DNA of 48,238 nt from contig NZ_JADEVE010000315.1 of the NCBI RefSeq assembly GCF_016125955.1, positions 1-48,238 of the forward strand, read 5' to 3'. The stretch's first letter is position 1. Each line of letters opens with the position of its first letter. The stretch comes from Acetomicrobium sp. S15 = DSM 107314 (lineage in GTDB: Bacteria > Synergistota > Synergistia > Synergistales > Thermosynergistaceae). Below the pieces are notes generated by a model. That model was given only the letters and a program-made list of their open reading frames with translations. It had not been told where the DNA came from and did no database searches. Both the position numbers and the translations under genes were made by a program. Positions 1,376-37,277 of this stretch are shown here, in pieces.

Positions 1376-1393
1376 ATTAAAGGGTGTGCGTAT

Positions 1394-8217: not shown

Positions 8218-8249
8218 TTCTCCACCCCCGCAAGATCTTTAGGCGTTAT

Positions 8250-8278
8250 GATATATTAGTCTAAACTATAAATGCCAA
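8250..8278 (-). promoter_or_regulatory. Candidate promoter of the dehydratase operon
   Basis: Minus-strand TTGGCA (8278-8273), a 17-base spacer and TATATC (8255-8250) lie about 32 bases before the dehydratase start codon. The region is shared with the divergent etfB, for which a TATAAA at 8267-8272 is visible but without a convincing -35 box. Confidence 0.4.
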
Positions 8279-8301
8279 AAATGCAGCGAGCGTGAAAGGC
8301 C

Positions 8302-9081
8302 ATGAATATTGTCGTTCTGGTAAAGATCGTGCCCGATATAGAAAAAGTCACGTTCAACGTGGAAAACGGCACGGTGGACAGGGCTTCCGCACCTCAGGAG
8401 GTCAACCCCTTCGACCTGAACGCCCTCGAAGAGGCGGTAAAGATCAAAGAAAAGGTCGGTGGAAGGGTGACAGCCGTGTGTATGGGACCTCCCGAAGCGA
8501 AGGAGGCCCTCAAAGATGCCCTGGCGAGGGGCGCCGACAGGGCGATTTTGCTTTCGGACAAGAAGCTGGCCGGCTCTGACACCCTTGCCACCTCATACGC
8601 GCTCTCCAGCGCCATAAAAAAGCTGGGCGAATTCGACCTGATATTGTGCGGCGAAAAGGCCACAGACGGCGACACGGGCCAAGTGGGGGCCGAAACAGCG
8701 GAGCATTTGGGCATTCCCCACGCCTATTACGTCTCGCTCCTTTCCATCGAAGGAGAAAAAGCCGTCGTGCATTCAGAGATGGAAGACAGGCTCCTCGTCA
8801 TGGAATTTCCTCTGCCAATGTTAGTCTCCGTGACCAAAGACATAAACACCCCCCGGCTGCCATCGCTTAAAAGCAAGCTCGCTTCCCGCAAAAAGGAGGT
8901 AGAGGTATGGTCCGCCGTTGACATAGGAGCAGACGAAACTAAGCTTGGTTTCCCGGGCTCTCCCACGATGGTTTACAAGGTAACGTTTCCCACCGAAGAA
9001 GGAAGAAAAGGCCTTATTTTCAAAGACACAAACGAGGGAGTCAAAGGAATAGCCAAAGCCCTCACGTTTTTTAAGGCTTAA
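8302..9081 (+). CDS. etfB: Electron transfer flavoprotein beta subunit
   Basis: A 259-residue EtfB, the subunit that binds AMP or a second flavin and accepts electrons from dehydrogenases to pass on through EtfA. The N-terminus MNIVVLVKIVPD, NPFDLNALEEAVKIKE and CGEKATDGDTGQVGAETAEH are characteristic. Length is normal. GAAAGG lies 5 bases before the ATG. Unusually it stands alone: the following 355 bases hold no gene, and the only etfA in the window is at 41224, next to a GlcD-type oxidase and without its own etfB. In Acetobacterium-type lactate dehydrogenase systems the order is etfB-etfA-glcD, so this EtfB may be the displaced partner. Confidence 0.92.
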   Translation: MNIVVLVKIVPDIEKVTFNVENGTVDRASAPQEVNPFDLNALEEAVKIKEKVGGRVTAVCMGPPEAKEALKDALARGADRAILLSDKKLAGSDTLATSYALSSAIKKLGEFDLILCGEKATDGDTGQVGAETAEHLGIPHAYYVSLLSIEGEKAVVHSEMEDRLLVMEFPLPMLVSVTKDINTPRLPSLKSKLASRKKEVEVWSAVDIGADETKLGFPGSPTMVYKVTFPTEEGRKGLIFKDTNEGVKGIAKALTFFKA

Positions 9082-22165: not shown

Positions 22166-23194
22166 CTACTGCTCTCGCTTTATGGCTTCCTGAACAAGGG
22201 CTCTCAGTTTTTCCATTACTGAAGGCGCGGTTTCAAGACCGGCTTCTTTAGCTTCCTCGATCCACTGTTTCTGAAGATCTTGTAGTCTATCCGCATTCTC
22301 CCACTTCGCTATGTCCTCTTTCGACATGAACGTGACGGTGCAACCTGCAGCACGCTGCTCTTCAACGATCTTGTCGAAGGTTTCGTCATAAACCCTGGAG
22401 AATGCCGCTTCGGCAATCTCACTTGCCTTGAGCATCCCATCTTGGACATCCTTTGGCAGTTTGTTCCAAAAGTCGATATTTACAAGATGAAGGAACGGTT
22501 GGGCATACCACAATTCCTTAGAAACCAAAAGGTTGGGCGCTGCTTCATGGAACTTCATCAGATGCAATCCGTCATAATTGGTAAAGCATCCTGTTATCGT
22601 GCCAGTCTGCAGTGCCATATACACGTCGTCCCATGCGACAGAGACCGGAACAGCCCCCGCGTTTTCCAGGAACCTAAAAGCCCACTTGTCGCCGGCTCTC
22701 CATTTTTGTCCCTTTATATCGTCTATGCTCTTAATAGGTTTTGTGCTACAAAAGGCGCCAGGCAACCCGGCTGTAAAGAGCAACGGCTTTACGTTAGCCT
22801 TGGCGAGCTCCTCTTTCAGCTCGGGGATCTCCTCAAAGGCTTTGCGGTAGAGCCACACCATATTCTCGAACTTGCTGGGACCACGAGGGAAAAGTTTAAG
22901 GGCGGTAAAAGAAACGAGTTGGCCAGGATAGTGTCCGGGGTAAATAAAACCCATGTGGGTCACTCCAGAACCTATGCCTTTAAGCGCTTCTTGGGAGGAA
23001 AGCAGCGCACCGCCCCAGAAATCCTGAATTTTCACCTTGCCTTCGGTCTGCTTTATGATCTCGGGGAACCACACTTCGCTTAGGAATTTGGGCCGCATCC
23101 CTCCTGGCGGATCGTGATTTGAGTATTTTATGGTAATTGTTTGAGCCTCACAGGTTATTCCCGTAAAGAACAAGAAAGATACGACTGCAATCAT
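22166..23194 (-). CDS. dctP: TRAP transporter substrate-binding protein DctP
   Basis: A DctP-type periplasmic binding protein for the adjacent DctQ-DctM permease. Family features are SNHDPPGGMRPK near the mature N-terminus, the helix-strand LFTAGLPGAFCSTKPI, DIKGQKWRAGD with the substrate Arg, and GTITGCFTNYDG. The in-frame ATG at 23194 gives a signal peptide with no basic n-region. The same frame is open further upstream and encodes G-R-K-L-F-V-R before it, but its only ATG there (23228, with GGAGG 7 bases before it) is one base out of frame at a run of four G. Removing one G gives a normal signal peptide. Real frameshift, assembly indel or a genuine start at 23194 remain possible. Ligand unknown, probably a cyclic ureide or its derivative. 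Confidence 0.88.
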   Translation of the reverse strand: MIAVVSFLFFTGITCEAQTITIKYSNHDPPGGMRPKFLSEVWFPEIIKQTEGKVKIQDFWGGALLSSQEALKGIGSGVTHMGFIYPGHYPGQLVSFTALKLFPRGPSKFENMVWLYRKAFEEIPELKEELAKANVKPLLFTAGLPGAFCSTKPIKSIDDIKGQKWRAGDKWAFRFLENAGAVPVSVAWDDVYMALQTGTITGCFTNYDGLHLMKFHEAAPNLLVSKELWYAQPFLHLVNIDFWNKLPKDVQDGMLKASEIAEAAFSRVYDETFDKIVEEQRAAGCTVTFMSKEDIAKWENADRLQDLQKQWIEEAKEAGLETAPSVMEKLRALVQEAIKREQ

Positions 23195-23305
23195 CCCTAT
23201 AACCCTAACAAATAACTTTCTACCCCATGGCTGAACCTCCCTTCTTTAATACAACGCATCGCTTTTTACACCGCTTCACTCATAGAGCCAAACCTGTCAA
23301 ACCCT

Positions 23306-24664
23306 CTAAACGACACGCCCTATAAACCTTCCCCATCCAGGTTTGCCGACCACCTCCTTCCCATCGTAGACCACCTGCCCCCGCACGATCGTAGCTATTA
23401 CGCGCCCGGTCAGCTCCATTCCGTCGTAAGGACTCCATTTGGCGCTGCTATAGCTTTTATCAGCGCTAAATCTCCACTTGTCTTTTGGATCCAACACAAC
23501 TATGTCTGCATCGGCGCCTACGCGGATAACTCCTTTTTTGGGATAGAGTCCGAAACGGCGTGCAGGTGCTTCACTAACTAACTGCGTAACCATCGTGACG
23601 TCCATACCTCGCTTAGCCGCACCCTCGCTGTAGATGAGCGGCAAAAGCAGCTCTACACCTGGGACGCCAGAGCCATTATCGAAAATGTTAGGATGGGTCT
23701 TATTTTCCAAAGGCCAGGGGGCGTGATCAGATGTGATGAAATCTATTTCTTCACTCATAAGTTTCTGCCATAACTCTTCAACCATGGTGCGGGGTCTCAA
23801 GGGGGGATTTATTTTGCCAAAGGCTTTAAGCCTCGGCATGTCTTCCTCGGCAAGGACAAGGTAATGTATGCACGTTTCAGCAGTCACGTCGAGCCCCCAA
23901 TTTTTGTAACTTCTGACAATATCAAAACCACGAGGTACGCTGATGTGAGCTATGTGGACTTTGGCGTCGCACGCAAGCGCAAGCTCAAGCAAATGCGCTA
24001 TGGCAGTCGTCTCAGTAACAGGAGGCCGACTGCGACAATGGTCTAACGGGTCACCGTAGCCGCAACTTTTCAGCTCGTCCACCAAAGTCCTGACCAACTC
24101 TTCGTTCTCGGCGTGAAAACTGGTAACTACTCCGTATTTATTTAGCTCTGAAAAGGCTTTCATCAACTCCCGATCCGTGATCCTGGGGAAGCGATAAGGG
24201 TCAGTCTCATAAGTCGACATCTTGAAGGCACAGGCGCCCTCTTCTATTAATCCTTTTATTTCTCCAGTGCCGCCACTCTTGGCTATCGTGCCATAAAGAG
24301 CAACATCTACTACAGCTTCGTTATTGGCTTCTGATATCTTTTCTTTAAGGCGAGATCGATTCATCACGGGGCCAGCTGCATCGAAAGGCATGTCAATCAC
24401 CGTCGTGACACCGCCTGCAGCGGCTGCGCGAGTTGTATTAATGAGTCTTTCGGGTTTGTCTTTGACGCTCGCCGAGTGTACATGGGCATCGATGGCACCC
24501 GGTAAGATCAATTTGCCCCTCGCGTCCAGAACCTGCCCTGCAGATGGGGCTTCTTTTTCTAACCCAATGGCTGCAATTTGGCCTCCGGAAACAGCCACAA
24601 ACCCATCCCGCACGACATCGCCCGATGTCACGACATCACCCTTAATAACGAGATCGATCGGCAT
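23306..24664 (-). CDS. Allantoinase/dihydropyrimidinase-like cyclic amidohydrolase
   Basis: A 452-residue metal-dependent amidohydrolase that opens cyclic amides (allantoin, hydantoin, dihydropyrimidine or dihydroorotate). Visible are the small beta-sandwich at both ends, DAHVHS with the first two His ligands, the expected carboxylated Lys in GACAFKM, FHAEN and IAHIS with two further His, and SDHAPW with the metal Asp. The ATG at 24664 is chosen because GAGGAGG lies 7 bases ahead; the frame runs 12 codons further up into the end of the IclR gene. Downstream are dctP, dctQ, dctM and the M20 carbamoyl/allantoate hydrolase. The allantoinase-hydantoinase choice cannot be made by eye. Confidence 0.87.
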   Translation of the reverse strand: MPIDLVIKGDVVTSGDVVRDGFVAVSGGQIAAIGLEKEAPSAGQVLDARGKLILPGAIDAHVHSASVKDKPERLINTTRAAAAGGVTTVIDMPFDAAGPVMNRSRLKEKISEANNEAVVDVALYGTIAKSGGTGEIKGLIEEGACAFKMSTYETDPYRFPRITDRELMKAFSELNKYGVVTSFHAENEELVRTLVDELKSCGYGDPLDHCRSRPPVTETTAIAHLLELALACDAKVHIAHISVPRGFDIVRSYKNWGLDVTAETCIHYLVLAEEDMPRLKAFGKINPPLRPRTMVEELWQKLMSEEIDFITSDHAPWPLENKTHPNIFDNGSGVPGVELLLPLIYSEGAAKRGMDVTMVTQLVSEAPARRFGLYPKKGVIRVGADADIVVLDPKDKWRFSADKSYSSAKWSPYDGMELTGRVIATIVRGQVVYDGKEVVGKPGWGRFIGRVV

Positions 24665-24683
24665 TCCCACTCCTCCTCGCAGT

Positions 24684-25454
24684 TTATATAACCGACGCAT
24701 CTAACGCTTTAGTGATTTCTTTAGCCGCTTCAAAAAGTAGCGGCACAAATTTCCTTTCTTTTTCTTCACTGAATCTATATTCTGGCATACCGATAGTTAG
24801 ACTCCCATAGATCTCTCCATGCCTGGCAACTAAGGGAACAGCTATGGCGGTTGCCCCTTCGTCCACTTCACCCGTTATAGTGGCGTATCCGAGCTCCTTG
24901 AGCTTTAAAACCCTCTCCAACACCTTGTGAGGATCGGTCCACGTCCTTTCCGTATACCTTTCCAAAGGCTTAGAGAATAGGTGAGATCTTATCCTGCTTT
25001 CCGGCATGCCTATCAATATCGCTATTCCGGTAGCGCCGGCATGGAGAGGGAAGTATCGCCCTACTTCAGAGGTCAACTTCACGCTTCGCGGCGTCTCGAA
25101 CTTCTCTATGCATATCGCACCAATCTTGTTTTCAACGGCCAGTACTATCGTTTCGTCTGTGAGCTCCAAGAGTTTCATCATGATCGGTCGGGATACAGCA
25201 ATTAGGGGGTGACGCATCAGTGAGGATCTGATCGAAAGTATTCCTAAACCCAAGCGGTATTTGCCGCTGTTTTTGTCTTTCTCTACCCACTCATTTTCTT
25301 CCAAGGTAATGAGAATCCTGTGGACGACGCTTTTGTGCAAGCCCACCTTCCTGCTGAGCTCAGAAATGCCAGCTTCGCCCTTTCCTTGACACAAAGCTTC
25401 GAGAACTTTAATGGCCCTTGAAATCGATTGGTTGATATAGCTATCTCGTTCCAT
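24684..25454 (-). CDS. IclR-family transcriptional regulator (ureide cluster)
   Basis: An IclR-type regulator of about 256 residues with an N-terminal winged helix-turn-helix (ISELSRKVGLHKSVVHRIL) and a C-terminal effector domain (DEGATAIAVPLVARHGEIYGSL). The ATG at 25454 fits the normal N-terminus and has GGAGG just upstream, although spacing is short; the frame extends to a TTG at 25481. It is the first gene of the amidohydrolase-TRAP-carbamoylase unit and divergent from the phosphonate operon. A strong promoter with a palindromic site over the probable transcription start suggests autoregulation. Confidence 0.92.
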   Translation of the reverse strand: MERDSYINQSISRAIKVLEALCQGKGEAGISELSRKVGLHKSVVHRILITLEENEWVEKDKNSGKYRLGLGILSIRSSLMRHPLIAVSRPIMMKLLELTDETIVLAVENKIGAICIEKFETPRSVKLTSEVGRYFPLHAGATGIAILIGMPESRIRSHLFSKPLERYTERTWTDPHKVLERVLKLKELGYATITGEVDEGATAIAVPLVARHGEIYGSLTIGMPEYRFSEEKERKFVPLLFEAAKEITKALDASVI

Positions 25455-25483
25455 CTTCCTCCGTCTCGATAAGAGAGACAATG

Positions 25484-25785: not shown

Positions 25786-26664
25786 TTGAGCAAGGCAAAA
25801 GTGTGGGTCGTCTTGGGAATCGCGGTTTTGGCCTTAGCCGCAGGATGCATTTCATCGGAGGCAGCAGAGGCTTTACGGATAGGTCTTATACCCGCAGAAG
25901 ACCAAAGGGAGATGCTCAAGCAATATGAAGGGATTATAGAATATCTCGAAGAATCGGTGGGGATGGAGATCAAGCCTTTTGTGGCCACAGACTACTCAGG
26001 TGTTATCGAGGCCATGCGTTCGGGCAAATTGGACATCGCCTACTTCGGCCCCTTCTCTTACGTCTTGGCCGCCGATGTGGCAAACGTCGAGGCCTTTGCA
26101 GTGCCGATGAGGAGCGATGGCAGGACTACCTACAACAGCATCATAATTGCACATGCCGAAACCGGCATAAAATCCATATCGGATTTAAAAGGGAAGACTT
26201 TCGCCTTCGTGGATCCAGCGTCGACCTCGGGACACCTCTTCCCCAGGGCAATGCTACAAAAGGCGGGCATCGACCCCGAAAAGGATTTCTCCAGCATGGT
26301 CTTCGCCGGCGGGCATGACGCTGTAGAGCTGGCCGTCAAGAACCGCAAGGTGGACGCAGGAGCGGACAGCGACAAGACGTACGATCGCATGGTAAAAGAT
26401 GGCCTCATTGACCCTAAGGTAAACATAATCATCGCCAAATCCGATCCCATCCCGGGCTCGCCCTGGGCATGGAGAAGGGACCTCCCCGACGACCTCAAGG
26501 GTAAGTTCAAGGCTGCCATACTGGAAGTGGGCACAAAGAGGCCCGACATCTTAGCGAAGATGTCGGGCGGAATAGCAGGCTACGCTGAGGCTAAGGACGC
26601 TGACTACAACGTGATCAGGGAAACGGCCAAAATCCTAAACCTCGACCTCAAGAGCTTAAATTGA
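25786..26664 (+). CDS. phnD: Phosphonate ABC transporter substrate-binding protein
   Basis: PhnD captures phosphonates outside the membrane for the PhnCE importer. The 292-residue protein has a signal sequence with a lipobox-like ALAAGC (Cys21), so it is probably a lipoprotein. AYFGPFSYV and DPASTSGHLFP are the family's substrate-loop motifs; DLKGKTFAF and the GGHDAVELAV segment also match. It starts with TTG after AAGGGGTGA. It is the first gene of the phosphonate operon. A perfect 12-bp inverted repeat lies inside its 3' end (26541-26568). The following phnC frame opens one base after its stop codon. Confidence 0.95.
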   Translation: MSKAKVWVVLGIAVLALAAGCISSEAAEALRIGLIPAEDQREMLKQYEGIIEYLEESVGMEIKPFVATDYSGVIEAMRSGKLDIAYFGPFSYVLAADVANVEAFAVPMRSDGRTTYNSIIIAHAETGIKSISDLKGKTFAFVDPASTSGHLFPRAMLQKAGIDPEKDFSSMVFAGGHDAVELAVKNRKVDAGADSDKTYDRMVKDGLIDPKVNIIIAKSDPIPGSPWAWRRDLPDDLKGKFKAAILEVGTKRPDILAKMSGGIAGYAEAKDADYNVIRETAKILNLDLKSLN

Positions 26665-26665: not shown

Positions 26666-27592
26666 ATGGCCAGCCTCGAAAGAGAACCCATCATGAAAGG
26701 ACAAATTTCCTCATATATCCCGGCCGTCCTAACGGCAGAAGTTCAAGCCCAGGAGGTCAAGAATCTGCACGACACGCCAAGCATGGTGAAGCCTCAAACC
26801 GAAAGGAGCACTAAGGCTAGTAAAACCATGATAAAGGCGCAGGATTTATGGAAAGAATTTCCAAACGGCGTTCAGGCCCTACAGGGCGTGAGCTTTGAGG
26901 TGGAAAGAGGAGAGTTCGTGGCGCTCTTGGGCTTAAGCGGGGCCGGCAAATCGACCCTTCTGCGCTGCATAAACGGCCTGATCAAGCCTACAAAAGGTGA
27001 GGTATGGATAAATGACACACCGGTGGGCGACGCCGGTGCAGATCTGAGAGCGCTCAGAAGGCAGTTGAGCATGATATTCCAGCAATTCAACCTCGTAAAG
27101 CGACTCACCGTCTTGGAAAATGTCCTGTGCGGTCGGCTCTCGTATTGCAACCCATTGTCGAGTTGTTGTCGCTTCTTTTCCAGAGCAGATTTGCATATAG
27201 CTTTCGAGGCGTTAGAAAGGGTGCACCTGACGGATAAAGCCAACGTAAGGGCAGATCAGCTCTCCGGTGGGCAGCAGCAGCGCGTAGGGATAGCGAGGGC
27301 GTTAGTGCAACAACCACAGGCAATCTTGGCGGACGAACCGGTTTCGAGCTTGGACCCGAAAACTTCCCGCAACATCATGGAGATCCTGCAGCAGATCAAC
27401 GATACAGATCATATCACCGTAATAGCAAGCCTTCACGATGTTGAGCTCGCCTTGACATACGCGCATCGGGTCATCGGTCTCCAAGCCGGCAGGGTTGTCC
27501 TCGATAGCCCTGTGGAAGGCATCCGCGACGAAGACCTGGAATACCTGTACGAGCAGCAGAGGCAGGAAGAAGCCCTGCTGGAGGTGATTTGA
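26666..27592 (+). CDS. phnC: Phosphonate ABC transporter ATP-binding protein
   Basis: PhnC drives phosphonate import with PhnE and PhnD. ATPase motifs are Walker A GLSGAGKST, Q-loop QQFNLV, signature LSGGQQQRV, Walker B AILADEP and the switch His in ASLHD. Family members usually begin at the equivalent of Met55 (26828, MIKAQDLWKEFPNG), about 254 residues. The open frame from ATG 26666 adds a polar 54-residue extension of no known role. Neither ATG has a good Shine-Dalgarno sequence: AAAGGAGC is 17 bases before 26828, so the start is uncertain. The end overlaps the phnE start (TTGA). Confidence 0.93.
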   Translation: MASLEREPIMKGQISSYIPAVLTAEVQAQEVKNLHDTPSMVKPQTERSTKASKTMIKAQDLWKEFPNGVQALQGVSFEVERGEFVALLGLSGAGKSTLLRCINGLIKPTKGEVWINDTPVGDAGADLRALRRQLSMIFQQFNLVKRLTVLENVLCGRLSYCNPLSSCCRFFSRADLHIAFEALERVHLTDKANVRADQLSGGQQQRVGIARALVQQPQAILADEPVSSLDPKTSRNIMEILQQINDTDHITVIASLHDVELALTYAHRVIGLQAGRVVLDSPVEGIRDEDLEYLYEQQRQEEALLEVI

Positions 27593-28407
27593 TTTTGGAA
27601 GGGCGTAAGGATGAGGGGGTACTTCAAGCCACCCCCTCTCCCCTATCTTGGTTTCTCCAGTGGCAACGGCTGTTAATCGTCGCCGTATTGGTGGCTATAT
27701 ATTGGAAGAGCGCCGCGGATAGCGAGCTGAGTGTTGTAATGCTCATAGATGGGATCCCCAATATATTCGACATTGTGGGGAGGATGCTGCCGCCCAACTT
27801 CTCCATCTTGGGTTCGCTCGTAAAGCCGACATTCCAGACCATCGAAATGGCCATATGGGGGACGACGCTGGCCGTGCTCTTATCGATGCCCTTGGGTATG
27901 CTTGCCGCAAAGAACTTAACGCCAAACCCGCTGCTTTATAGCGCCTCCCGCCTCATCCTCAATGCACTGCGAGCCATTTCTGAGATCGTGTTCGCCCTCA
28001 TCTTCGTCGCTGCCGTGGGATTGGGTCCGTTTCCGGGGGTGCTGGCCTTGGCGGTGCACTCTGCAGGTCAGTTGGGTAAGTTCTATGCTGAGGCAATAGA
28101 GAATATCGACCCAGGTCCCGTCGAAGCGCTGGAGGCCACAGGGGCTCATAAGCTTCAGGTCATCGCCTATGCGATAATCCCCCAGATCATACCCGAGTTC
28201 GTCACGTACACCCTCTACCGCTGGGAGGTAAACGTGCGAGCAGCTACCGTCCTCGGCCTCGTAGGCGCTGGCGGGATCGGCTTTGAGCTCATGACCAGCA
28301 TGCGTCTCTTTCAATATCGCGATACGTCAATGATCCTCCTCGTCATTTTGGCTGCAGTAATTTTGGTGGATCACACGTCTAACAAAATCAGAAGCGCCAT
28401 CATATGA
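27589..28407 (+). CDS. phnE: Phosphonate ABC transporter permease
   Basis: PhnE is the membrane channel of the phosphonate importer. The 272-residue protein has about six hydrophobic segments, and the cytoplasmic EAA loop (EALEATGAHKLQVIAYAIIP) contacts PhnC. It starts at a TTG overlapping the phnC stop (27589), or at TTG 27595, with GGAGGTG just upstream. The stop overlaps the phnG ATG. Confidence 0.94.
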   Translation: MILEGRKDEGVLQATPSPLSWFLQWQRLLIVAVLVAIYWKSAADSELSVVMLIDGIPNIFDIVGRMLPPNFSILGSLVKPTFQTIEMAIWGTTLAVLLSMPLGMLAAKNLTPNPLLYSASRLILNALRAISEIVFALIFVAAVGLGPFPGVLALAVHSAGQLGKFYAEAIENIDPGPVEALEATGAHKLQVIAYAIIPQIIPEFVTYTLYRWEVNVRAATVLGLVGAGGIGFELMTSMRLFQYRDTSMILLVILAAVILVDHTSNKIRSAII

Positions 28408-28844
28408 AAACGGGGGGTGCGCGAATGGAAAGGGAGAAACTCTTCGATATCCTCTCCATGGCGAGCGACGAAACCATAGAAGACGTGGCCAAGCTCGTCC
28501 TGGAGGAGGCGCCAGATGTTGAGACCATAAAGGGTCCCCGCGTGGGCCTCGTAATGATGCAAGCCAAAGAGTCTGTAGAGGACGAAATCTTCAACCTCGG
28601 TGAAGTTTTGGTATCGGAGTGCGCCGTAACGTCGGGAAACTTCATTGGATGGGGAATCTGCATGGGTGAAAACCTTAAAAAGGCCTCCAACTTGGCTCTG
28701 ATAGACCTAGCCTTCGAGGCGTCTCTGCCGGTCGCTTCCAAAATCGTAGCCGTGGCGGAAAAAGAGCAGAAAGACCAAGAGGCCAAAAAAGAAGAGCTCT
28801 TTGCGGCCGTGTTGCGCTCCCGTGTGGATTTCGAGGTGATTTGA
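28404..28844 (+). CDS. phnG: C-P lyase core subunit PhnG
   Basis: PhnG is part of the PhnGHIJ core complex and, with PhnH, PhnI and PhnL, allows displacement of adenine from ATP by a phosphonate. The 146-residue length and segments DVETIKGPRVGLVMMQAKES and ECAVTSGNFIGWG are typical. The ATG overlaps the phnE stop (ATGA). A second Met (28425) with a G-rich leader is an alternative start. The stop is one base before the GTG of phnH. Confidence 0.94.
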   Translation: MKTGGARMEREKLFDILSMASDETIEDVAKLVLEEAPDVETIKGPRVGLVMMQAKESVEDEIFNLGEVLVSECAVTSGNFIGWGICMGENLKKASNLALIDLAFEASLPVASKIVAVAEKEQKDQEAKKEELFAAVLRSRVDFEVI

Positions 28845-28845: not shown

Positions 28846-29460
28846 GTGTTATCGCCATTCGAATCTCAGTACGTATTCAGACGCCTCTTAGACAGCATGG
28901 CCAGGCCTGGGAAGATCAACGAGCTACGCCAACATATTTCATGCAAAGGGAATTTCCCTGAGGAGCATCTGGCTGTGATGGCGGTGGCGGGCACGCTTCT
29001 CGATTCGGAGGTAACGTTTGCGCCACTGGGTGACAAGATGAAGGAGCTCGCTCCGCACATCTCCCTCATGACGGAAAGTCGAGTCGCAGAACCGGAAGAG
29101 GCGGACTTTCTGCTATCCGACGGCCTTTATCCCGCCACCGAAATCTCGTGCGCAAAGAGGGGAACCCTCCTCTTTCCGGAGGGCGGCGCCACGATAATTC
29201 TGGAGGTAGAAGAGCTCCTGGCCGACGGAATGGATGTAGATACCTATGTCGTTGTAGAGGGACCGGGGGTGCCAGAGAAAAGAGGCTTTGCTATCTGCGG
29301 GCTTTTCCCCGAGAACCTCGCTCTCGTTCAAGAGGCAAACGAGGAATTTCCCCTCGGCGTCGATGTGATCCTCGTCTCGAGGTCAAATAGGGTGACATGC
29401 CTGCCTAGGTCGGTCAGGTTTGAATCGCTCTCCGCAAGCTACGGGAGGTGTCGCGCTTGA
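28846..29460 (+). CDS. phnH: C-P lyase core subunit PhnH
   Basis: PhnH is a PLP-transferase-fold subunit, without PLP, of the C-P lyase core complex. The 204-residue protein opens with the family pattern SQYVFRRLLDSMARPG. It starts with GTG right after the phnG stop, with GAGGT only a few bases before it. Its stop overlaps the phnI start region. Confidence 0.93.
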   Translation: MLSPFESQYVFRRLLDSMARPGKINELRQHISCKGNFPEEHLAVMAVAGTLLDSEVTFAPLGDKMKELAPHISLMTESRVAEPEEADFLLSDGLYPATEISCAKRGTLLFPEGGATIILEVEELLADGMDVDTYVVVEGPGVPEKRGFAICGLFPENLALVQEANEEFPLGVDVILVSRSNRVTCLPRSVRFESLSASYGRCRA

Positions 29461-30602
29461 GTTATACAGCCATCAAAGGCGGAGAAAGGGCCATCGACGC
29501 TGCCGAGGAGCTGGTCCACTTCTTCCGTTTGAAGGGCAACTCACGTCCCCTTGAAGTGAGGCAGATTATGGATCAAATGCGATTGGCTGTGGACCAGGTC
29601 ATGGGAGAAGGCTCACTTTACGCCCCATATCACGCCGCATTGGCCCTAAAACAGGCCGAGGGAGATACCATCGAGGCCTCGTTTTTATTAAGGGCATACC
29701 GCTCGACTCTGGAGCGCTTGGGTTATTCCATCGTAACCGACATAAGCCGCATGTTGGTCATAAGGCGCATATCCGCCGCCTTCAAAGACATCCCAGGCGG
29801 CCAAATACTGGGACCAACCCGCGACTACTCCCTGCGCCTCCTAAATTTCGACTTGGCCGAGGAGGACTCCGAAAAAGCAAAAAGCTTCATTAGCGACTTC
29901 CTCTCAAAGGGCGATGGACTCTCAACCCAAAGACTGCCGCTGCGCTTCCCCAAGGTGATCGAAATCCTCAGGGCAGAGGGATTATTAGAAAAGGCGCGGC
30001 CTCGCAATACGAAAGAAGGATCCGTCCCAGACTTGACCAGGGAGCCGTTGACCTTCCCAGCAGCTCGACAAATCCGCTTGCAGGCCATGGCTCGAGCCGA
30101 GAAGGGAAGCATTATGGCTTTAGCCTACAGCACCATGCGAGGTTACGGCAATGTCCACCCGACGTTGGGCGAATTGAGAGTCGGGTATGTTCCCCTCGTA
30201 ATGGACAATCCGATAAGAAAAGACATAAAGGTGACCGTGGGGTGGTTATTGGTGACCGAAGCGGAGGTGATAACCAGTATGGACGACGCGCAAGGCACGC
30301 CGCGCTTCACGCTGGGTTACGGCCTGTGCTTCGGCCAGGACGAGATCAAGGCCATCTCTATGGCCGTTTTAGATCGGGCAATGCAGGCCAAAGAGGCCGG
30401 AGCTCCAGGCGAGGATGACGAGTTCGTCCTATGTCACATCGACGGCATAGACTCGTCGGGCTTCACGGCCCATTGGAAGCTTCCCCATTACGTCACCTTC
30501 CAATCGGCTTTAGACCGGCTGCGGCGCACACAACAAATCAAGAAAAGAGAGGAGGTCATGCCCGATGGAACTCCAGAATACGACCAGCCGCAACAAGTAT
30601 AA
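29457..30602 (+). CDS. phnI: C-P lyase nucleosidase subunit PhnI
   Basis: PhnI carries the nucleosidase activity that replaces adenine of ATP with the phosphonate, giving alpha-D-ribose-1-(alkylphosphonate)-5-triphosphate together with PhnG, PhnH and PhnL. The 381-residue sequence begins YTAIKGGERAIDAAEEL, the family N-terminus, and contains SYSTMRGYGNVHPTLGELR-type sequence (here AYSTMRGYGNVHP). TTG at 29457 is chosen as the start because GGGAGGTG lies 6 bases ahead and TTGA overlaps the phnH stop; a GTG three codons upstream is possible. Its end overlaps phnJ by 38 bases. Confidence 0.95.
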   Translation: MSYTAIKGGERAIDAAEELVHFFRLKGNSRPLEVRQIMDQMRLAVDQVMGEGSLYAPYHAALALKQAEGDTIEASFLLRAYRSTLERLGYSIVTDISRMLVIRRISAAFKDIPGGQILGPTRDYSLRLLNFDLAEEDSEKAKSFISDFLSKGDGLSTQRLPLRFPKVIEILRAEGLLEKARPRNTKEGSVPDLTREPLTFPAARQIRLQAMARAEKGSIMALAYSTMRGYGNVHPTLGELRVGYVPLVMDNPIRKDIKVTVGWLLVTEAEVITSMDDAQGTPRFTLGYGLCFGQDEIKAISMAVLDRAMQAKEAGAPGEDDEFVLCHIDGIDSSGFTAHWKLPHYVTFQSALDRLRRTQQIKKREEVMPDGTPEYDQPQQV

Positions 30603-31434
30603 CTTCGCCTTTCTCGACGAAGGCAGTAAGCGCGAATTCAGGCGCCGCATGCTCAAAGCGGTTGCAATACCCGGCTATCAGGTTCCTTTCGCCTCCAGGG
30701 AGCTGCCTTTGGCCAAGGGATGGGGAACGGGGGGATTGCAGCTTACCATGTCTCTTATAGGCCCGGACGACATCCTCAAGGTGATAGACCAGGGATGCGA
30801 CGAAGTAGTAAATGCGGTGAACATTAGAAAGCTCTTGGCAAAGACGACAGGGGTAGACACGACGATAGACACGACGGAGGCGACGATAATCCAGACCCGC
30901 CATCGCATTCCCGAAGAACCATTAAGGGAAGACCAGATCTTGGTATTCCAAGTTCCCTACCCTGAGCCACTCAGGCTGGTTGAACCGAGCGAGACTAAAA
31001 CGAGGCAGATGCATGCGGAGGGAGATTATAGCCGCCTCTGGGTTCACCTATATGAAGAGATCGTTCGCTGGGGCGAGGTCGCCATCGGATCACGATACCC
31101 GGTTATGATCAACGACCGCTACATAATGGATCCTTCTCCGATCCCGCGCTGGGACATACCTAAACTTCACATGGCCAAAACGCTCTACCTCTTCGGAGCA
31201 GGGAGAGAGAAGCGTATATACGCCGTGCCTCCATATACTTCGGTTAAGCCTCTGGAGTTCGACGATCATCCCTTTAGAGTCGAGGACTTCACAGGAAAAC
31301 GGTGCTCCCTCTGCGGCAGCACAGATACATACCTGGACGAAATAATCGACGATGTCGCAGGCGAGCGACGATATATGTGCTCCGATACCTCGTATTGCCT
31401 GAAAGTCAGACAGACGAAAGAGGTGAAGGTATGA
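30565..31434 (+). CDS. phnJ: Alpha-D-ribose 1-methylphosphonate 5-phosphate C-P lyase (radical SAM)
   Basis: PhnJ breaks the carbon-phosphorus bond by radical-SAM chemistry, giving the alkane and 5-phosphoribosyl-1,2-cyclic phosphate. The 289-residue protein has the exact C-terminal cluster pattern C247-x2-C250-x21-C272-x5-C278; three Cys bind the 4Fe-4S cluster and the fourth is the thiyl radical site in the Escherichia coli enzyme. AVAIPGYQVPF carries the glycine (Gly37) matching the proposed glycyl radical residue, and GWGTGGLQLT follows. GGAGG precedes the ATG within phnI. The stop overlaps the phnK ATG (ATGA). Confidence 0.97.
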   Translation: MELQNTTSRNKYNFAFLDEGSKREFRRRMLKAVAIPGYQVPFASRELPLAKGWGTGGLQLTMSLIGPDDILKVIDQGCDEVVNAVNIRKLLAKTTGVDTTIDTTEATIIQTRHRIPEEPLREDQILVFQVPYPEPLRLVEPSETKTRQMHAEGDYSRLWVHLYEEIVRWGEVAIGSRYPVMINDRYIMDPSPIPRWDIPKLHMAKTLYLFGAGREKRIYAVPPYTSVKPLEFDDHPFRVEDFTGKRCSLCGSTDTYLDEIIDDVAGERRYMCSDTSYCLKVRQTKEVKV

Positions 31435-32333
31435 AGACCTCAACGGCAGACTCGCAGGCACTTTATTTTAGCGAAAAAGCGGATGACGTCCTAACGAAAG
31501 AAAAGCCGCTCCTTTCTGTGCGCGGCCTGGTAAAGATATATGGCACGGGTTGTCCTCGCTGCCTTGACCTGACCGGCTCAGAGGTAAATTGCAATACCTG
31601 CCCGCACTGTCATTCTGTGGTCGCTTGCAACGAGGTGAGCTTCGACCTTCACAAGGGAGAGATCTTGGGCGTGGTGGGAGAGAGTGGCTCCGGCAAGAGC
31701 ACCCTCGTCCAATGCCTTTACTTCGACGTGGAGGCCACCGCTGGCAAGGCTTTCTTCCTTCCATACAAAAGGGGAGAGGCTAACATTTTATCGCTATCCT
31801 CTCAAGAGAAGCGCCGCATCCGCAATCATATGCTGGGCATGGTGTATCAAAACCCGCAAATTGGATTGAAGATGCACTTCACGGCCGGAGGCAACGTGGC
31901 TGAAAAACTTCTGACAGCCGGCTTCTTTCACTTCGACAACATAAGGGCACGGGCCGGCGAGCTCTTGGAGCGCACCGAGGTACCGCTGGATAGGATGGAC
32001 CACCTTCCCAGATACTTCAGTGGAGGAATGCAACAGAGAGTGCAGATCGCCAAGGCTTTGGCCAACAACCCTCCTCTGGTCCTCTTGGATGAGGTCACAA
32101 CGGGCCTCGACGTCTCGGTGCAGGCCAAAGTGCTCGATCTGATAAAGGGGTTGCAGGAGGAGTTGGGCGTAGCCATGATCATCGTATCTCACGATCTGGG
32201 AGTAATCCGGCTGCTCGCCGAGAGGACGATGGTCATGAAAAACGGCCACGTTGTGGAATCCGGTCTAACCGACCAGATCTTGGAAGATCCGCAACACCCT
32301 TACACACAACTCCTCGTCAGCTCGCTTCTATAA
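31431..32333 (+). CDS. phnK: C-P lyase ABC-type protein PhnK with cysteine-rich insert
   Basis: PhnK is an ABC-type ATPase that docks on the PhnGHIJ core. The 300-residue protein has Walker A GESGSGKST, Q-loop MVYQNPQIGL, signature FSGGMQQRV, Walker B LVLLDE and SHD. Between the first strand and the Walker A region it carries an extra Cys-rich segment, C41-x2-C44-x9-C54-x2-C57-x2-C60-x5-C66, absent from the E. coli protein and resembling a zinc ribbon or metal-binding knuckle. The ATG at 31431 overlaps the phnJ stop and has GAGGTG 3 bases before it; the upstream open frame is phnJ shadow. Confidence 0.93.
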   Translation: MKTSTADSQALYFSEKADDVLTKEKPLLSVRGLVKIYGTGCPRCLDLTGSEVNCNTCPHCHSVVACNEVSFDLHKGEILGVVGESGSGKSTLVQCLYFDVEATAGKAFFLPYKRGEANILSLSSQEKRRIRNHMLGMVYQNPQIGLKMHFTAGGNVAEKLLTAGFFHFDNIRARAGELLERTEVPLDRMDHLPRYFSGGMQQRVQIAKALANNPPLVLLDEVTTGLDVSVQAKVLDLIKGLQEELGVAMIIVSHDLGVIRLLAERTMVMKNGHVVESGLTDQILEDPQHPYTQLLVSSLL

Positions 32334-32350: not shown

Positions 32351-33118
32351 GTGGCATATGGTTTCGCAAAAAGCGAGGAGGAGAATGTCTTACTCAAGGT
32401 CTCAAACTTGAGCAAGACATTTAGTGTCCATCTGTTGGGCGGCATGACGGTTACGGCATGCCAAGGAATAACGTTTTTCATAAGGGCCGGCGAGGCCTTG
32501 GGCATTCAGGGACCCAGCGGGTCAGGCAAATCCACAATCCTAAGGTGCATCTACCGCACTTACCTTCCCACCTCGGGCGAGATGCTCTACCGCTCAAATC
32601 GCGGAACGGTGGATCTCGCCAGAATAGACGAGAGAAGTATTTTGATGCTACGAAGGGAAGAGATATCCTATGTCTCCCAATTCCTCCGTGTTATCCCCAG
32701 GGTGTCAGCCCTCGATGTGGTATCTCAAGGCCTCAGAAGAAAAGGACATCCCAAAGAGGAGGCTTTAAACCGGGCAAGGCTGCTCCTTTCGCGCCTGGGA
32801 ATCCCTCCTTCCTTGTGGAGCGCTTTCCCGTCCACATTCAGCGGAGGAGAACAGCAGCGGGTCAACGTGGCTCGTGCCATAGCAGCCGAACCGAGGCTCA
32901 TTTTGCTCGATGAGCCCACCGCTTCCCTGGACGCCGATTCCAAGGAGATGATGATAGAGCTGTTTTTGGAATTAAAAGCAAGAAGAACAGCGTTTATCTT
33001 GGTTTCCCACGATATGAATGCCCTTAAGCGAGTCTCGGACAGGATTTTCTGTCTGAGCAAGGGCAAAGCACAAAACTCCGGGGAGGTAGAAATGGAATAT
33101 GCACAAGTTGATGATTGA
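32351..33118 (+). CDS. phnL: C-P lyase ABC-type protein PhnL
   Basis: PhnL is the second ABC-type ATPase of the pathway and is required with PhnGHI for the nucleosidase step. The 255-residue protein has Walker A GPSGSGKST, Q-loop YVSQFLRVIPRV (a PhnL feature), signature FSGGEQQRVNVARA, Walker B LILLDEPTASLD and SHD. It starts with GTG 5 bases after AGGAGGTG, 17 bases after the phnK stop. Its end overlaps phnM by 20 bases. Confidence 0.95.
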   Translation: MAYGFAKSEEENVLLKVSNLSKTFSVHLLGGMTVTACQGITFFIRAGEALGIQGPSGSGKSTILRCIYRTYLPTSGEMLYRSNRGTVDLARIDERSILMLRREEISYVSQFLRVIPRVSALDVVSQGLRRKGHPKEEALNRARLLLSRLGIPPSLWSAFPSTFSGGEQQRVNVARAIAAEPRLILLDEPTASLDADSKEMMIELFLELKARRTAFILVSHDMNALKRVSDRIFCLSKGKAQNSGEVEMEYAQVDD

Positions 33119-34313
33119 CGGAGCCAATATAGTTCTCCCAAATGGAATGCTTGAAGAAGGCTATCTGCGCATCGAGGACGGCATCATAATCGACGTGGGC
33201 GCGGGGAGGCCTTCACCCGAAAAAGGCATTTCCTACATAGATGCTTCAGGCCTGTATATATTGCCAGGCTTGATCGACATACATAGCGACGCCGTAGAAA
33301 AAGAAGTACAGCCTCGCCCCAATGTGACAATCCCCATCCCTTCATCCTGTAGAGAGCTTGAGCGCAAACTGGCCGCTGTCGGGATTACGACTATCTTTCA
33401 TTCATTATCGTTCTCTGGAGGCGAAGGGATCCGCTCCAATGCCCTGGCCGCAGAATGCGCGCGGTTTATAAGGAGGCGCGCAGACCAAGAACATCTGATC
33501 CGCAATCTCGTCCACCTGCGATATGAAATAGGCAATACCAAAGCCTTAGAGCTGATATACGAGCTTTTGGAAGAAGGTGCTTGTGATCTCGTGTCTTTCA
33601 TGGATCACACGCCGGGGCAAGGGCAATATCGTGATGTAAGTCAGTACCATCATTATATAAAGAAGACGTTTTGGCTCGAGGATAAAGACTGCCAGAGGCT
33701 GATCGAAGAGAAGATCCAGGCCAGACAACGAGTGGACTTCAGGGCTCTCAGCAATCTGGCACGCTCGGCCAAGGATGCAGGTATTCCTTTGGCTTCCCAC
33801 GATGACGATAGCCCAGAGCGCGTGGAGGTGGCCAGCGCGATGGGAGTCGACGTCATGGAATTCCCGATGAACTTAGAGACGGCCAAATACGCCAGGAACC
33901 TCGGACTCCACGTATGCGTCGGCGCCCCAAATCTGCTCCAGGGGCGTTCCCACAACGGTAACCTGAGCGCCCAAGTCGCCGTAGAAGATGGTGCGGCCGA
34001 TATCCTCTGCTCCGACTATTACCCTCCGGCCCTTCTGAAGGGAATCTTCAAACTCGCTGATAACGGTATGGACATTTCCCGCGCCGTAAACCTGGCATCG
34101 CTAAATCCGGCAATAGCCTTGGGGTTGGACGATGAGATCGGATCACTCGAGGTGGGGAAAAAAGCGGACTTTATTCTGGTGCGCCTGGAAGAAAACGACC
34201 CCTTAGTAATAACTACAGTTACAGAGGGAAAGATAGTTTTAACCTACAACTACCATGACCCTTCGCATTTAGAAGGAGTTTTGGCTTCAGAAAAGGAGGC
34301 AATTGCTCAATGA
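33099..34313 (+). CDS. phnM: Alpha-D-ribose 1-methylphosphonate 5-triphosphate diphosphatase
   Basis: PhnM removes pyrophosphate from ribose-1-phosphonate-5-triphosphate to give the PhnJ substrate. It is an amidohydrolase-superfamily protein of 404 residues with the metal motif DIHSD (His62, Asp64), FMDHTPGQGQYRD and ASHDDDSPE, all PhnM signatures. The ATG at 33099 lies inside phnL, with GGGGAGG upstream; ATG 33111 is an alternative. Its stop overlaps the start of the TIM-barrel gene (ATGA). Confidence 0.96.
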   Translation: MHKLMIDGANIVLPNGMLEEGYLRIEDGIIIDVGAGRPSPEKGISYIDASGLYILPGLIDIHSDAVEKEVQPRPNVTIPIPSSCRELERKLAAVGITTIFHSLSFSGGEGIRSNALAAECARFIRRRADQEHLIRNLVHLRYEIGNTKALELIYELLEEGACDLVSFMDHTPGQGQYRDVSQYHHYIKKTFWLEDKDCQRLIEEKIQARQRVDFRALSNLARSAKDAGIPLASHDDDSPERVEVASAMGVDVMEFPMNLETAKYARNLGLHVCVGAPNLLQGRSHNGNLSAQVAVEDGAADILCSDYYPPALLKGIFKLADNGMDISRAVNLASLNPAIALGLDDEIGSLEVGKKADFILVRLEENDPLVITTVTEGKIVLTYNYHDPSHLEGVLASEKEAIAQ

Positions 34314-35293
34314 GAAACGAGGATAACGTGTTCATCAAAAGTATCGGGATTAACGTTGATGCAGCATATGTGGACGGGGATCTAAGACGGCTGATCGAGC
34401 TGCTCGACGAGTACGCCGAAATGGAAGTCGAATGTGTAGAGGTCCCCTTGCACGCCACAGGAGCAATGTTGGGCGGCAAACTTATATCAGAAAGGGTTGA
34501 CGAGGTTTCGCGAATATTGAAGCGCTACCACTTCCATTACTCCGTGCATGCGCCAAACCCGATAAACCTTATGGATGCCGATGAACCTGAGCTGCACAAA
34601 GAGGCATTATTAGAAAGTATTAGATTCTCCGCCACTATAAATTCTAAAATATTGGTCTATCATAGTGGCAGATATATCCCAGAGGAACACTTTCACATAC
34701 CATGGCAAGCAGCAGGAAGGGCGACGCCTGAAACTGAAAGGCGAAGGTCGATGAACCGACGAGAAAAGGAGGCGCTTTTATCGCTGGCCAAGGAGGGAGA
34801 ACGCCTGGGCGTAACGCTATGTTTAGAGAATGCCCGGCCTTACCTCGATGGAGGCTTCTATTGCTACGCCGAGGATCCCTTCAGATTAGCCGAGCGCGTT
34901 CGCGACCTGAATCATCCTCGCATAGGCATCACTTTGGACATTGGGCACGCCTATCTATCGGCAAAACGCTATGGCTTCGACTTCCTAGAAGCCGTCAGAA
35001 GCGTCGCTCCTTTCACCAAACATGTGCATCTGCACGACAACTTTGGTCGAGTTTGCAGCTCGCTGGAGAAGAAACAGGTTGAGCTCTCCGCCTTGGGCAG
35101 AGGCGACATGCACCTTCCCATCGGCAAGGGAGAGATCCCCGTAGAAGAAGTCTTTTCGGTCCTGTGCGATTGCAATTACTCCGGCTTGCTGATCAACGAG
35201 ATAAGGCACCGCTACCTCGCCTGGGCTAGCGATGCGCTCGATCTCTGCAAGAGGCTTTTAAACATCACAAAAGAGAGCGCGTTGCCGAGCTAA
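34310..35293 (+). CDS. TIM-barrel metalloprotein (AP-endonuclease-2/sugar-isomerase superfamily) in phn operon
   Basis: A 327-residue protein of the xylose-isomerase-like TIM-barrel superfamily (COG1082/endonuclease IV clan). Its ATG overlaps the phnM stop, so it is translated with the C-P lyase genes. All nine positions that bind three Zn in endonuclease IV appear to have a counterpart in order: His80, His118, Glu173, Asp210, His213, His240 (or 242), Asp266, His268 and Glu297. GDMHLPIGKGEI in particular resembles the D-x-H...IG-x-G-x-I of endonuclease IV. Sugar isomerases of this clan share some of these, so activity is not proven. phnP, the usual cyclic-phosphate diesterase gene, is missing from the operon, and this protein is a candidate replacement. 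A sugar-phosphate isomerase acting on the released ribose phosphate is the alternative. Confidence 0.85.
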   Translation: MRNEDNVFIKSIGINVDAAYVDGDLRRLIELLDEYAEMEVECVEVPLHATGAMLGGKLISERVDEVSRILKRYHFHYSVHAPNPINLMDADEPELHKEALLESIRFSATINSKILVYHSGRYIPEEHFHIPWQAAGRATPETERRRSMNRREKEALLSLAKEGERLGVTLCLENARPYLDGGFYCYAEDPFRLAERVRDLNHPRIGITLDIGHAYLSAKRYGFDFLEAVRSVAPFTKHVHLHDNFGRVCSSLEKKQVELSALGRGDMHLPIGKGEIPVEEVFSVLCDCNYSGLLINEIRHRYLAWASDALDLCKRLLNITKESALPS

Positions 35294-36246
35294 AGCTTTT
35301 CGCGCCAATATTGCAGCATGTCCCTGACGGTGGTAGCGAGGTCGTATTCGGGCTTCCAACCGGTGGCAGAGGCGAGTTTGGAAGAATCGCCGAATATGAT
35401 AGGCTCATCTTTGAGCCTGAACAGCGCTGGATCTACTGTTACTTCAAAAGGAAGACCGAGCTTTTTCTTTATAATTTCTACTATTTCATAGACGGCATAT
35501 ACCCTTTGAGCGCTGGCGTTATACACCTCGCCCGGCGCACCTTTTTTTGCGAGCAGGATGAGGGCAGAGACTAAATCTCTTACATCGAGTATAGCTCTGC
35601 GATTCTCCATGTTTCCCACCCGCAGCGCTGGCGGTATATATCCCTTTTCTATCTGAATAGCCCTAAAGGTGAGGTCGGCACACACGTCACCTATCTTCCT
35701 GGGGCCGGTAGTGTTGAAGATTCTCACTCTTATACCCTTGATACCGAAGGTAGCCCAATATTGGTGGGTCAAGAGGTCCTGGGCAACCTTGCTGACGCCG
35801 TAGGGATGCAAGGGAAGCATCGCATGATCCTCCGATATGGGGACCTCTTCCTCGCTCACGTAGCCGTAAGCGGCGCTCGAACATGCTACGACAACCGTTG
35901 GGTCATAGGACTCTTTGGTCCTCAGGAGTTTTATCGCCTCAAACAAATTCGCCGTGCCTATCACGTTCGTCTCAAGCGTCTCTTGAGGTTTTTCCCACGA
36001 GACGCCAGGGAAACTCTGAGCCGCCAAGTGATAGATGACCTGCGGTTTATATTGTTCGACCAGGGTATAGACGTTTTGGAAGTAACGCACGTCCGTCTCG
36101 ACAAACGTGGCCTTTCCCTCTATCTCCTTCATGTCGATCGTGGGTTTATAGTAAGAAGCGATGACGTTTTCTTTCTTTTCGTTGCAGGAGAGCCTTTCTA
36201 TGAGATGGCTCCCTATCATTCCCCCAGCTCCTGTGATCAAGATCAC
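35290..36246 (-). CDS. NAD-dependent epimerase/dehydratase (GDP-mannose dehydratase-like)
   Basis: An extended SDR of about 318 residues acting on nucleotide sugars. Visible are the NAD-binding TGAGGMIGSH at the N-terminus, a conserved Ser-Ser at the active site (ACSSAAYG) and the catalytic YGVSK; the sequence is closest in style to GDP-mannose 4,6-dehydratase or GDP-6-deoxy-lyxo-hexulose reductase relatives. GTG at 36246 is chosen as start: it overlaps the upstream kinase stop (GTGA) and has GGGGGGTG 8 bases ahead; the open frame runs six codons further. Its stop overlaps that of the convergent TIM-barrel gene. It is the last gene of a sugar unit with the GHMP kinase and a fused glycosyltransferase. 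Confidence 0.88.
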   Translation of the reverse strand: MILITGAGGMIGSHLIERLSCNEKKENVIASYYKPTIDMKEIEGKATFVETDVRYFQNVYTLVEQYKPQVIYHLAAQSFPGVSWEKPQETLETNVIGTANLFEAIKLLRTKESYDPTVVVACSSAAYGYVSEEEVPISEDHAMLPLHPYGVSKVAQDLLTHQYWATFGIKGIRVRIFNTTGPRKIGDVCADLTFRAIQIEKGYIPPALRVGNMENRRAILDVRDLVSALILLAKKGAPGEVYNASAQRVYAVYEIVEIIKKKLGLPFEVTVDPALFRLKDEPIIFGDSSKLASATGWKPEYDLATTVRDMLQYWREKL

Positions 36247-37277
36247 GGATGTCGCACCCCCCAAGTATGTAACCCTATCTCTGTGAACGAATAATTGGCT
36301 ATCTGGGCACCCTCTTCCTGAAGCGCCTCAGCCACGGCATATCTCTTGTCAGCCTCCGCAAAGAAGAACATAAACCCTCCGCCACCCGCTCCTGAGACCT
36401 TCCCACCCAAAGCACCGGCTGATTTAGCCCTTTCATACAAGGCATCTATCCTCTGGTTCGTAATGCCTTCCGTAAAGCGCTTCTTCGATTCCCACGCCCT
36501 ATCGAGGAGAAGGCCGAAATCGTCCAAATTGCCGGTCACCAAGGCCGCCTTCATGGCCACAGCGAGCTCTTTGGCCTCATGAAGCGACTGAAGCGTCTCC
36601 CTCCTGCCGGAGGTCATGTCTCTTATTTGAGAGCTCAATATCCTGGACGAATCATGGGACCCTCCCACATAGGCCAAGATCAGCCTATGATGAAGCTCGT
36701 AAACCACATCGCTACGCAACCTCAAAGGATTGACTATCGTATTTGCCCCGTTGAACTCTATAAAATTGAAGCCCCCGAAGGCGGCGGCATACTGGTCTTG
36801 TTTGCCGCCGCGAATATTGAGCTCTTCCCTCTCTATGCGGTAGGCGAGCTCGGCCACCTCATACGGCGTGAGGGGCATGTTGAGCCAATGCTTAAATGCG
36901 CCTATCAGGGCTACGCACACCGCTGAAGAAGAGCCTAACCCCGAACCAGGAGGAGCATCGTTATGAATCCTGAGCCTGAAACCCTGGCCGATACCGTAGT
37001 TTTTCCTCATGTAGTTGACAACGCCTTTTATGAGGTCCAGATGGCCATCGTAAGCCAGAAATTGATCCACGTCATACTTCAGAGCTGTATCGTAATCTAT
37101 GCTCTCTATCTCTATGGTTTTGTCGTCAAACGGGAAAAGGCTTACGGTGGCATAACGATCGATGGTAGCGTTCATGACAGCACCGCCATATTCATCGCAA
37201 TAGGGGGACACGTCGGTCCCGCCTCCGCCGAAGCTTATCCTCAAAGGCACCCTGGATCGCGTGATCATGCCGCCCAT
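36243..37277 (-). CDS. GHMP-family sugar kinase (heptose-7-phosphate kinase-like)
   Basis: A 344-residue GHMP kinase of the D-glycero-D-manno-heptose-7-phosphate kinase type, phosphorylating a sugar at the anomeric position before nucleotide activation. RVPLRISFGGGGTD, the ATP loop APPGSGLGSSSAV (108-120) and KVSGAGGGGFMFF are its signatures. The ATG at 37277 begins 2 bases after the glycosyltransferase stop; the longer frame would overlap that gene. The epimerase follows with a GTGA overlap, so the three proteins are likely made together. Confidence 0.88.
   Translation of the reverse strand: MGGMITRSRVPLRISFGGGGTDVSPYCDEYGGAVMNATIDRYATVSLFPFDDKTIEIESIDYDTALKYDVDQFLAYDGHLDLIKGVVNYMRKNYGIGQGFRLRIHNDAPPGSGLGSSSAVCVALIGAFKHWLNMPLTPYEVAELAYRIEREELNIRGGKQDQYAAAFGGFNFIEFNGANTIVNPLRLRSDVVYELHHRLILAYVGGSHDSSRILSSQIRDMTSGRRETLQSLHEAKELAVAMKAALVTGNLDDFGLLLDRAWESKKRFTEGITNQRIDALYERAKSAGALGGKVSGAGGGGFMFFFAEADKRYAVAEALQEEGAQIANYSFTEIGLHTWGVRHP

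Follow-up and report, generated by a model that had tools for sequence, protein, structure and literature searches.

The window, as we call the whole stretch of 48,238 nucleotides analysed here (Acetomicrobium sp. S15, contig NZ_JADEVE010000315.1), contains a phosphonate operon of the order phnD-C-E-G-H-I-J-K-L-M-TIM according to Pfam and NCBIfam assignments, in which the last gene encodes a TIM-barrel protein. The upstream phn genes are spaced by gaps of at most 17 bases. The TIM ORF is preceded by a AAAAGGAGG ribosome-binding sequence and shares four bases with the end of phnM, an overlap that suggests translational coupling of the two genes. The original prediction had placed the gene in the operon on the strength of this overlap, and the ORF, the overlap and the upstream phnD to phnM assignments were all recovered. 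The features of the locus are as follows (phn genes named from Pfam/NCBIfam):

25786..26664, + strand, phnD
26666..27592, + strand, phnC
27589..28407, + strand, phnE (permease), similar to E. coli PhnE
28404..28844, + strand, phnG
28846..29460, + strand, phnH
29448..30602, + strand, phnI
30565..31434, + strand, phnJ
31302..32333, + strand, phnK, listed start GTG, matched by the PhnK model from residue 105
32351..33118, + strand, phnL
33099..34313, + strand, phnM
34310..34313, + strand, ATGA overlap of the phnM stop and the TIM start, 4 bases
34310..35293, + strand, TIM-barrel (AP_endonuc_2) ORF, 327 aa, ATG start, putative cyclic phosphodiesterase proposed to replace PhnP
35290-36264, - strand, NAD-dependent epimerase gene, terminating at the stop codon of the TIM gene

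Because the match to the PhnK model begins only at residue 105, the true phnK start probably lies downstream of the listed GTG. The TIM gene is followed by the NAD-epimerase gene and a GHMP-kinase gene, and upstream of phnD, on the - strand (window 22166-25481), are genes for an IclR regulator, an amidohydrolase and a DctP-type solute-binding protein. The nearest named record is 'Synergistales bacterium 54_24', with 88% identity over a fragment. Compared with the 88% identical fragment of a sister species, the TIM gene shows a dN of 0.056 and a dS of 0.465 and is therefore under purifying selection; the resulting dN/dS of about 0.12 also means that the ORF is not a chance one.

The usual enzymes are missing from the genome

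The C-P lyase pathway is a main route of phosphonate use and of methane release from methylphosphonate. To our knowledge, no enzyme is known for its final phosphodiester step in haloarchaea or in some bacteria. The cyclic phosphate hydrolysed by PhnP is 5-phosphoribosyl 1,2-cyclic phosphate, PRcP (PMC10574752). E. coli PhnP (TIGR03307) shares with the TIM protein the proposed reaction and the place at the phn operon end, but its metallo-beta-lactamase fold is unrelated, and the window protein has neither this fold nor a place in TIGR03307. PhnPP, the Elen0235-type enzyme (NF041661, phosphoribosyl 1,2-cyclic phosphate 1,2-diphosphodiesterase), is a metal-dependent diesterase encoded at the same last place of the operon; Elen0235 hydrolyses first a cyclic diester, then the resulting monoester (PMC11656708). 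PhnPP has a PHP fold, whereas the window protein is of the AP_endonuc_2 type, with no PHP domain and no assignment to NF041661. An RcsF-like 2H phosphodiesterase (DUF1045), also of unrelated fold and absent from the window, was earlier proposed as the PhnP replacement in phnP-less operons (PMC10574752).

We found no phnP, PhnPP or DUF1045/2H gene within the window, in agreement with the original prediction, which had seen neither PhnP nor a PHP-type enzyme there, and neither of these two turned up elsewhere in the genome. The best TIGR03307 match, at 16 bits, is RNase Z. A search with a model built from operon-borne PHP proteins returned a single strong match, which scored 153 bits against 475-501 bits for the operon-borne proteins that had built the model. 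This protein scores higher with 3',5'-nucleoside bisphosphate phosphatase/RNM models than with NF041661, and the phnJ-less sister genome encodes an equivalent of it; we therefore do not consider it a PhnPP. PhnN is absent from the genome as well, the best match (64 bits, under the cut-off of 156) probably being guanylate kinase.

The TIM protein carries the nine metal ligands of endonuclease IV

The window protein matches PF01261 (AP_endonuc_2) with an E-value of 4e-32 and 112 bits against a gathering threshold of 31.1, which makes it a member of that superfamily; it shows low sequence identity to all characterised enzymes. It has all nine ordered counterparts of the endonuclease IV (EndoIV) zinc ligands that had been predicted (H80, H118, E173, D210, H213, H240, D266, H268 and E297). 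The genome encodes a separate, true Nfo on another contig (TIGR00587, 275 bits); aligned with it, eight of the nine ligands coincide column for column and Glu297 is off by one alignment column. Positions of the ligand codons, matched to EndoIV through the genome's own Nfo, and of a shared insert are:

34547..34549, + strand, His80 codon, equivalent of the metal-1 ligand His69 of EndoIV
34661..34663, + strand, His118 codon, equivalent of the metal-1 ligand His109 of EndoIV
34826..34828, + strand, Glu173 codon, equivalent of the bridging ligand Glu145 of EndoIV
34832..34873, + strand, ARPYLDGGFYCYAE stretch, containing an insert also found in the Clostridia-class phn TIM protein but not in alphaproteobacterial relatives
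34937..34948, + strand, Asp210 to His213 codons, equivalents of Asp179 and His182 of EndoIV
35027..35029, + strand, His240 codon, equivalent of His216 of EndoIV
35105..35113, + strand, Asp266-Met-His268 codons, equivalents of the metal-3 ligands Asp229 and His231 of EndoIV, absent from tagatose epimerases
35198..35200, + strand, Glu297 codon, equivalent of Glu261 of EndoIV, one column off in the Nfo alignment

The nine ligands are invariant in one alignment of the window protein with 40 diverse homologues, a set that was seeded with the HVHLHDN/KHVHLHDN segment, so that conservation in that segment is biased. Later sets were unseeded: the ligands are also present in 12 alphaproteobacterial relatives, in the Clostridia-class phn TIM protein and in nine haloarchaeal proteins. 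A second nine-ligand TIM-barrel ORF of the genome overlaps and directly follows the RNase Z ORF (contig 300; locus L014 5784-7720).

We further investigated the fold of the protein. In an AlphaFold2 model (pLDDT 81, pTM 0.85), H80, H118, E173, D210, H240 and E297 are at or beside the C-terminal ends of the barrel strands, which is the usual catalytic face. The best Foldseek matches in the PDB were MJ1311 (3wqo) and then mostly ketose 3-epimerases and UlaE, and EndoIV was not among the 50 best. Fold alone is therefore indecisive, and the ligand set carries the argument. In a profile alignment, D-tagatose 3-epimerase chains lack a His at either metal-1 position and are gapped where the D-x-H metal-3 motif would be, while MJ1311 and TTHB071 keep all nine ligands. 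An active site that matched isomerases and lacked the third metal site had been named as the outcome that would speak against the prediction; here the ligands side with the prediction, since epimerases lack the extra ones, and the best fold matches do not, being MJ1311 and epimerases rather than EndoIV.

These comparisons bear directly on whether the TIM protein could be a sugar-phosphate isomerase/epimerase whose substrate, ribose bisphosphate or ribose 5-phosphate, comes after the cyclic phosphate in the pathway, with another enzyme opening the ring. Its PF01261 superfamily, its mostly ketose 3-epimerase and UlaE fold matches and the name 'sugar phosphate isomerase/epimerase' borne by homologues in public records would fit such an activity. 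However, phn TIM proteins carry the nine ligands while tagatose epimerases are without the metal-1 His pair and the D-x-H motif, and the NCBIfam epimerase models score far under their cut-offs for the window protein. We consider an isomerase distinctly unlikely and, because epimerases lack the extra metal ligands, weaker as a reading of the sequence than a phosphodiesterase.

Members of the superfamily with known phosphodiester substrates were considered as well. EndoIV (Nfo, TIGR00587) has the superfamily fold and all nine zinc ligands in common with the window protein, which gave no TIGR00587 match at E 0.001, and a role in DNA repair was rejected in view of the genome's own Nfo. CbiR (NF041277) belongs to the same superfamily and has conserved metal ligands; its hydrolysis of a cobamide phosphodiester is lost when many of the conserved residues are mutated (PMC7733943), and it sets a precedent for the cutting of a non-DNA phosphodiester by this superfamily. 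The window protein is not itself a CbiR (32.4 bits against a cut-off of 105, and no cobamide genes adjoining). MJ1311, the best PDB match in fold and sequence, with nine ligands in the alignment, is an archaeal, function-unassigned protein with no phn link shown.

TIM and PHP genes alternate at the end of bacterial phn operons

Five of 183 Synergistia genomes carry phnJ. Among the four other than that of the window, three have a PhnPP-type PHP gene directly after phnL at the operon end, the fourth (G143) has only an N-terminal PhnPP remnant after phnL (C231:7788-7901; locus L011 about 6790-6900), and none has PhnP above the cut-off. The sister species without phnJ has only a truncated TIM copy adjoining a transposase gene. 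On its contig (L015 7743-9488), sequence matching window 1338-9054 is separated by a transposase-like gene from a TIM fragment that starts from residue 143 (window 34737). The arrangement looks like the loss of the phn region through an insertion element, or like a misassembly.

In the Clostridia class, phnJ is found in nine of 392 genomes, seven of which have a PHP gene in the phn operon, and the PHP proteins tested prefer NF041661. Another genome, G591, has no PhnP, PhnPP, TIM or DUF1045 gene within 19 kb of its phn genes; a gene of the Y_phosphatase3 family follows the transporter genes of that locus. A further one, G312, has the order phnD-C-E-E-GH-I-J-K-L-M-TIM. Its TIM protein is 35% identical to the window protein (201 bits), the two have in common the insert RPYLD..YCYAE and a GRGDMH.PIG motif, and they group together in two trees (support 95/82 and 95/88). 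No PhnP, PhnPP or DUF1045 was found in the 2,145,341 bases of G312, nearly the whole genome, where the best PHP match reached 178 bits; operon PHPs, the majority of which had gone into building the model, scored 366-437. Across 391 Clostridia-class genomes the phn-TIM clade is represented in G312 only (616 bits; next 93).

The bacterial phn operons found with a TIM gene are thus two, those of the window and of G312, and among the operons examined TIM and PHP genes never occur together. An isomerase would not explain why a single operon place holds either this gene or that of a known cyclic phosphodiesterase, with the two never seen side by side.

Other variants were seen as well. At locus L107 (4097-5737), a PhnPP-type PHP domain lies within a 546-aa ORF and is possibly fused to another domain. 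Two Clostridia-class phn operons (L110 7506-8327, L113 5259-6080) have a gene of the inositol-monophosphatase family adjoining the PHP gene or close to it. A Thermus plasmid phn operon (L261 12433-13874) has no annotated phnN or phnP and is followed by a convergent TIGR00282 metallophosphoesterase gene.

Haloarchaeal plasmids carry a TIM gene after phnM

We then surveyed plasmid phnJ operons. A TIM gene of the nine-ligand type directly follows phnM in all 10 phnJ-bearing haloarchaeal plasmid records found, the ligands having been checked in eight of the proteins, and in Haloferax alexandrinus (WP_345774718.1) it overlaps phnM by ATGA. Seen from the protein side, 10 of 11 haloarchaeal proteins of the TIM type are encoded after phnM, the exception being that of Halostagnicola, which sits elsewhere. 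In Haloarcula halophila, Halorientalis, Natrinema and Haloarcula sinaiiensis, the TIM gene is overlapped by 8 bases by a downstream HAD-IA hydrolase gene. This hydrolase is likely a phosphatase for the opened product, which fits ring opening followed by dephosphorylation. No DUF1045/2H gene was found in the haloarchaeal operons examined, and a 2023 review reported haloarchaea with phnGHIJKLM and without phnNOP (PMC10574752).

Phn-type TIM proteins therefore occur in phn operons of Synergistota, Clostridia and Halobacteria. A phnP gene elsewhere in the genome, together with a family mainly outside phn operons, had been named as another outcome that would speak against the prediction, and here too the result favoured it. 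Such recurrence, at one operon position in G312 and on 10 haloarchaeal plasmids, already contradicts the notion that a COG1082-type gene merely happens to follow phnM. Bacterial examples are few and TIM-barrel genes of this kind are common in bacteria, but with the 4-base phnM overlap and purifying selection also against it, a chance neighbour is highly implausible.

The haloarchaeal TIM proteins form their own clade (support 100/100). A single clade of haloarchaeal, window and G312 proteins was rejected with a p-AU of 0.002, in a test that included a non-phn haloarchaeal row nested among phn TIM proteins. This rejection suggests that the AP_endonuc_2 superfamily was recruited twice, once in bacteria and once in haloarchaea, with caution for long branches.

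The nearest relatives lie beside sugar phosphodiester genes

The nearest outgroup in the tree consists of alphaproteobacterial TIM proteins with about 31% identity over 95% coverage, which have the nine ligands and are encoded outside phn operons. Five of 12 such loci contain an Acc-type ABC importer and a GDPD (AccF-type) phosphodiesterase, four of 12 a Ugp-type importer, and the other three have different contexts. TIM proteins of acc-like operons (for example on plasmid pAtK84b and S. meliloti pSymB) adjoin an agrocinopine-type phosphodiesterase (AccF/GDPD) or ABC importers and, unlike the phn proteins of the window and G312, are without the YCYAE insert. AccF yields L-arabinose 2-phosphate or glucose 2-phosphate (PMC4526662), and ring opening of glucose 1,2-cyclic phosphate gives glucose 2-phosphate and glucose 1-phosphate (PMC7356202). 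It is attractive to infer that phn-TIM proteins and their alphaproteobacterial relatives have a substrate type in common, a sugar 1,2-cyclic phosphate.

Agrocinopine operons on Agrobacterium and Rhizobium opine plasmids also have a nine-ligand TIM-barrel gene, after accG and a NUDIX gene, and many other Agrobacterium plasmids, Ti included, show a partial, mostly unannotated match. More distant relatives (20-30% identity) were found in 46 genomes, none with phnJ, a result that looked negative by itself, and therefore only the phn-type clades count for the link to phosphonates. Phage records gave no match.

The relatives also raise the question of whether the TIM protein performs another phn-linked hydrolysis, of a side product, phosphonate or phosphate diester, while the ring of PRcP is left to the RNM-type PHP protein, to an undetected 2H enzyme or to spontaneous opening. 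Proteins whose genes lie beside importers and GDPD enzymes may act on sugar phosphodiesters generally, and an RNM-type PHP protein, which could in principle moonlight, is present in both bacterial TIM genomes. Yet that protein is equally present in PhnPP-keeping genomes and in the phnJ-less sister, E. coli needs PhnP despite having RNM, and neither the window, the haloarchaeal operons examined nor G312 has a DUF1045/2H gene. We regard this division of labour as unlikely.

A proposed cyclic phosphodiesterase of the C-P lyase pathway

Altogether, the TIM gene closes a phn operon in a genome with no PhnP and no PhnPP, with G312 as a second case. This setting, the nine ligands, the alternation with PhnPP and the recurrence in three lineages point to a functional analogue, and the cyclic phosphodiesterase held plausible in the original prediction is supported by the missing enzymes, the extra metal ligands and the recurrence in phn operons. 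From sequence comparison, we consider it probable that the TIM protein hydrolyses PRcP as a metal-dependent cyclic phosphodiesterase replacing PhnP or PhnPP. The C-P lyase system with PhnM would deliver 5-phospho-alpha-D-ribosyl 1,2-cyclic phosphate (PRcP), whose diester would be bound at a putative three-metal site formed by the nine ligands. A metal-activated water would then attack the phosphorus and open the ring to a ribose bisphosphate, presumably the 1,5- or 2,5-isomer. Because the genome has no PhnN, the product would probably leave through a phosphatase to ribose 5-phosphate rather than by direct conversion to PRPP.

The original prediction had counted the TIM barrel as a third solution to this step. 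With an RcsF/2H enzyme already put forward (PMC10574752), it would instead be the fourth proposed fold, after PhnP, PhnPP and the 2H enzyme. In the open-licence literature we found no description of a TIM gene in phn operons. A broader possibility, which we advance tentatively, is that endonuclease-IV-like TIM barrels with three metals entered the C-P lyase pathway as its cyclic phosphodiesterase on at least two occasions, in bacteria and in haloarchaea, and that the wider bacterial clade consists of sugar 1,2-cyclic phosphate hydrolases. If true, the missing-PhnP gap of haloarchaea would be filled, and the activity of the wider clade would account for its genes lying next to those of AccF-type phosphodiesterases, which make sugar 2-phosphates.

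The TIM gene that recurs in the PhnP slot, publicly labelled 'sugar phosphate isomerase/epimerase', is one candidate for the step, and as a PhnP stand-in it looks like an overlooked recurring solution. Its recognition would improve genome-based calls of which microbes are able to complete the C-P lyase pathway, and would give the endonuclease IV superfamily another non-DNA phosphodiester substrate.
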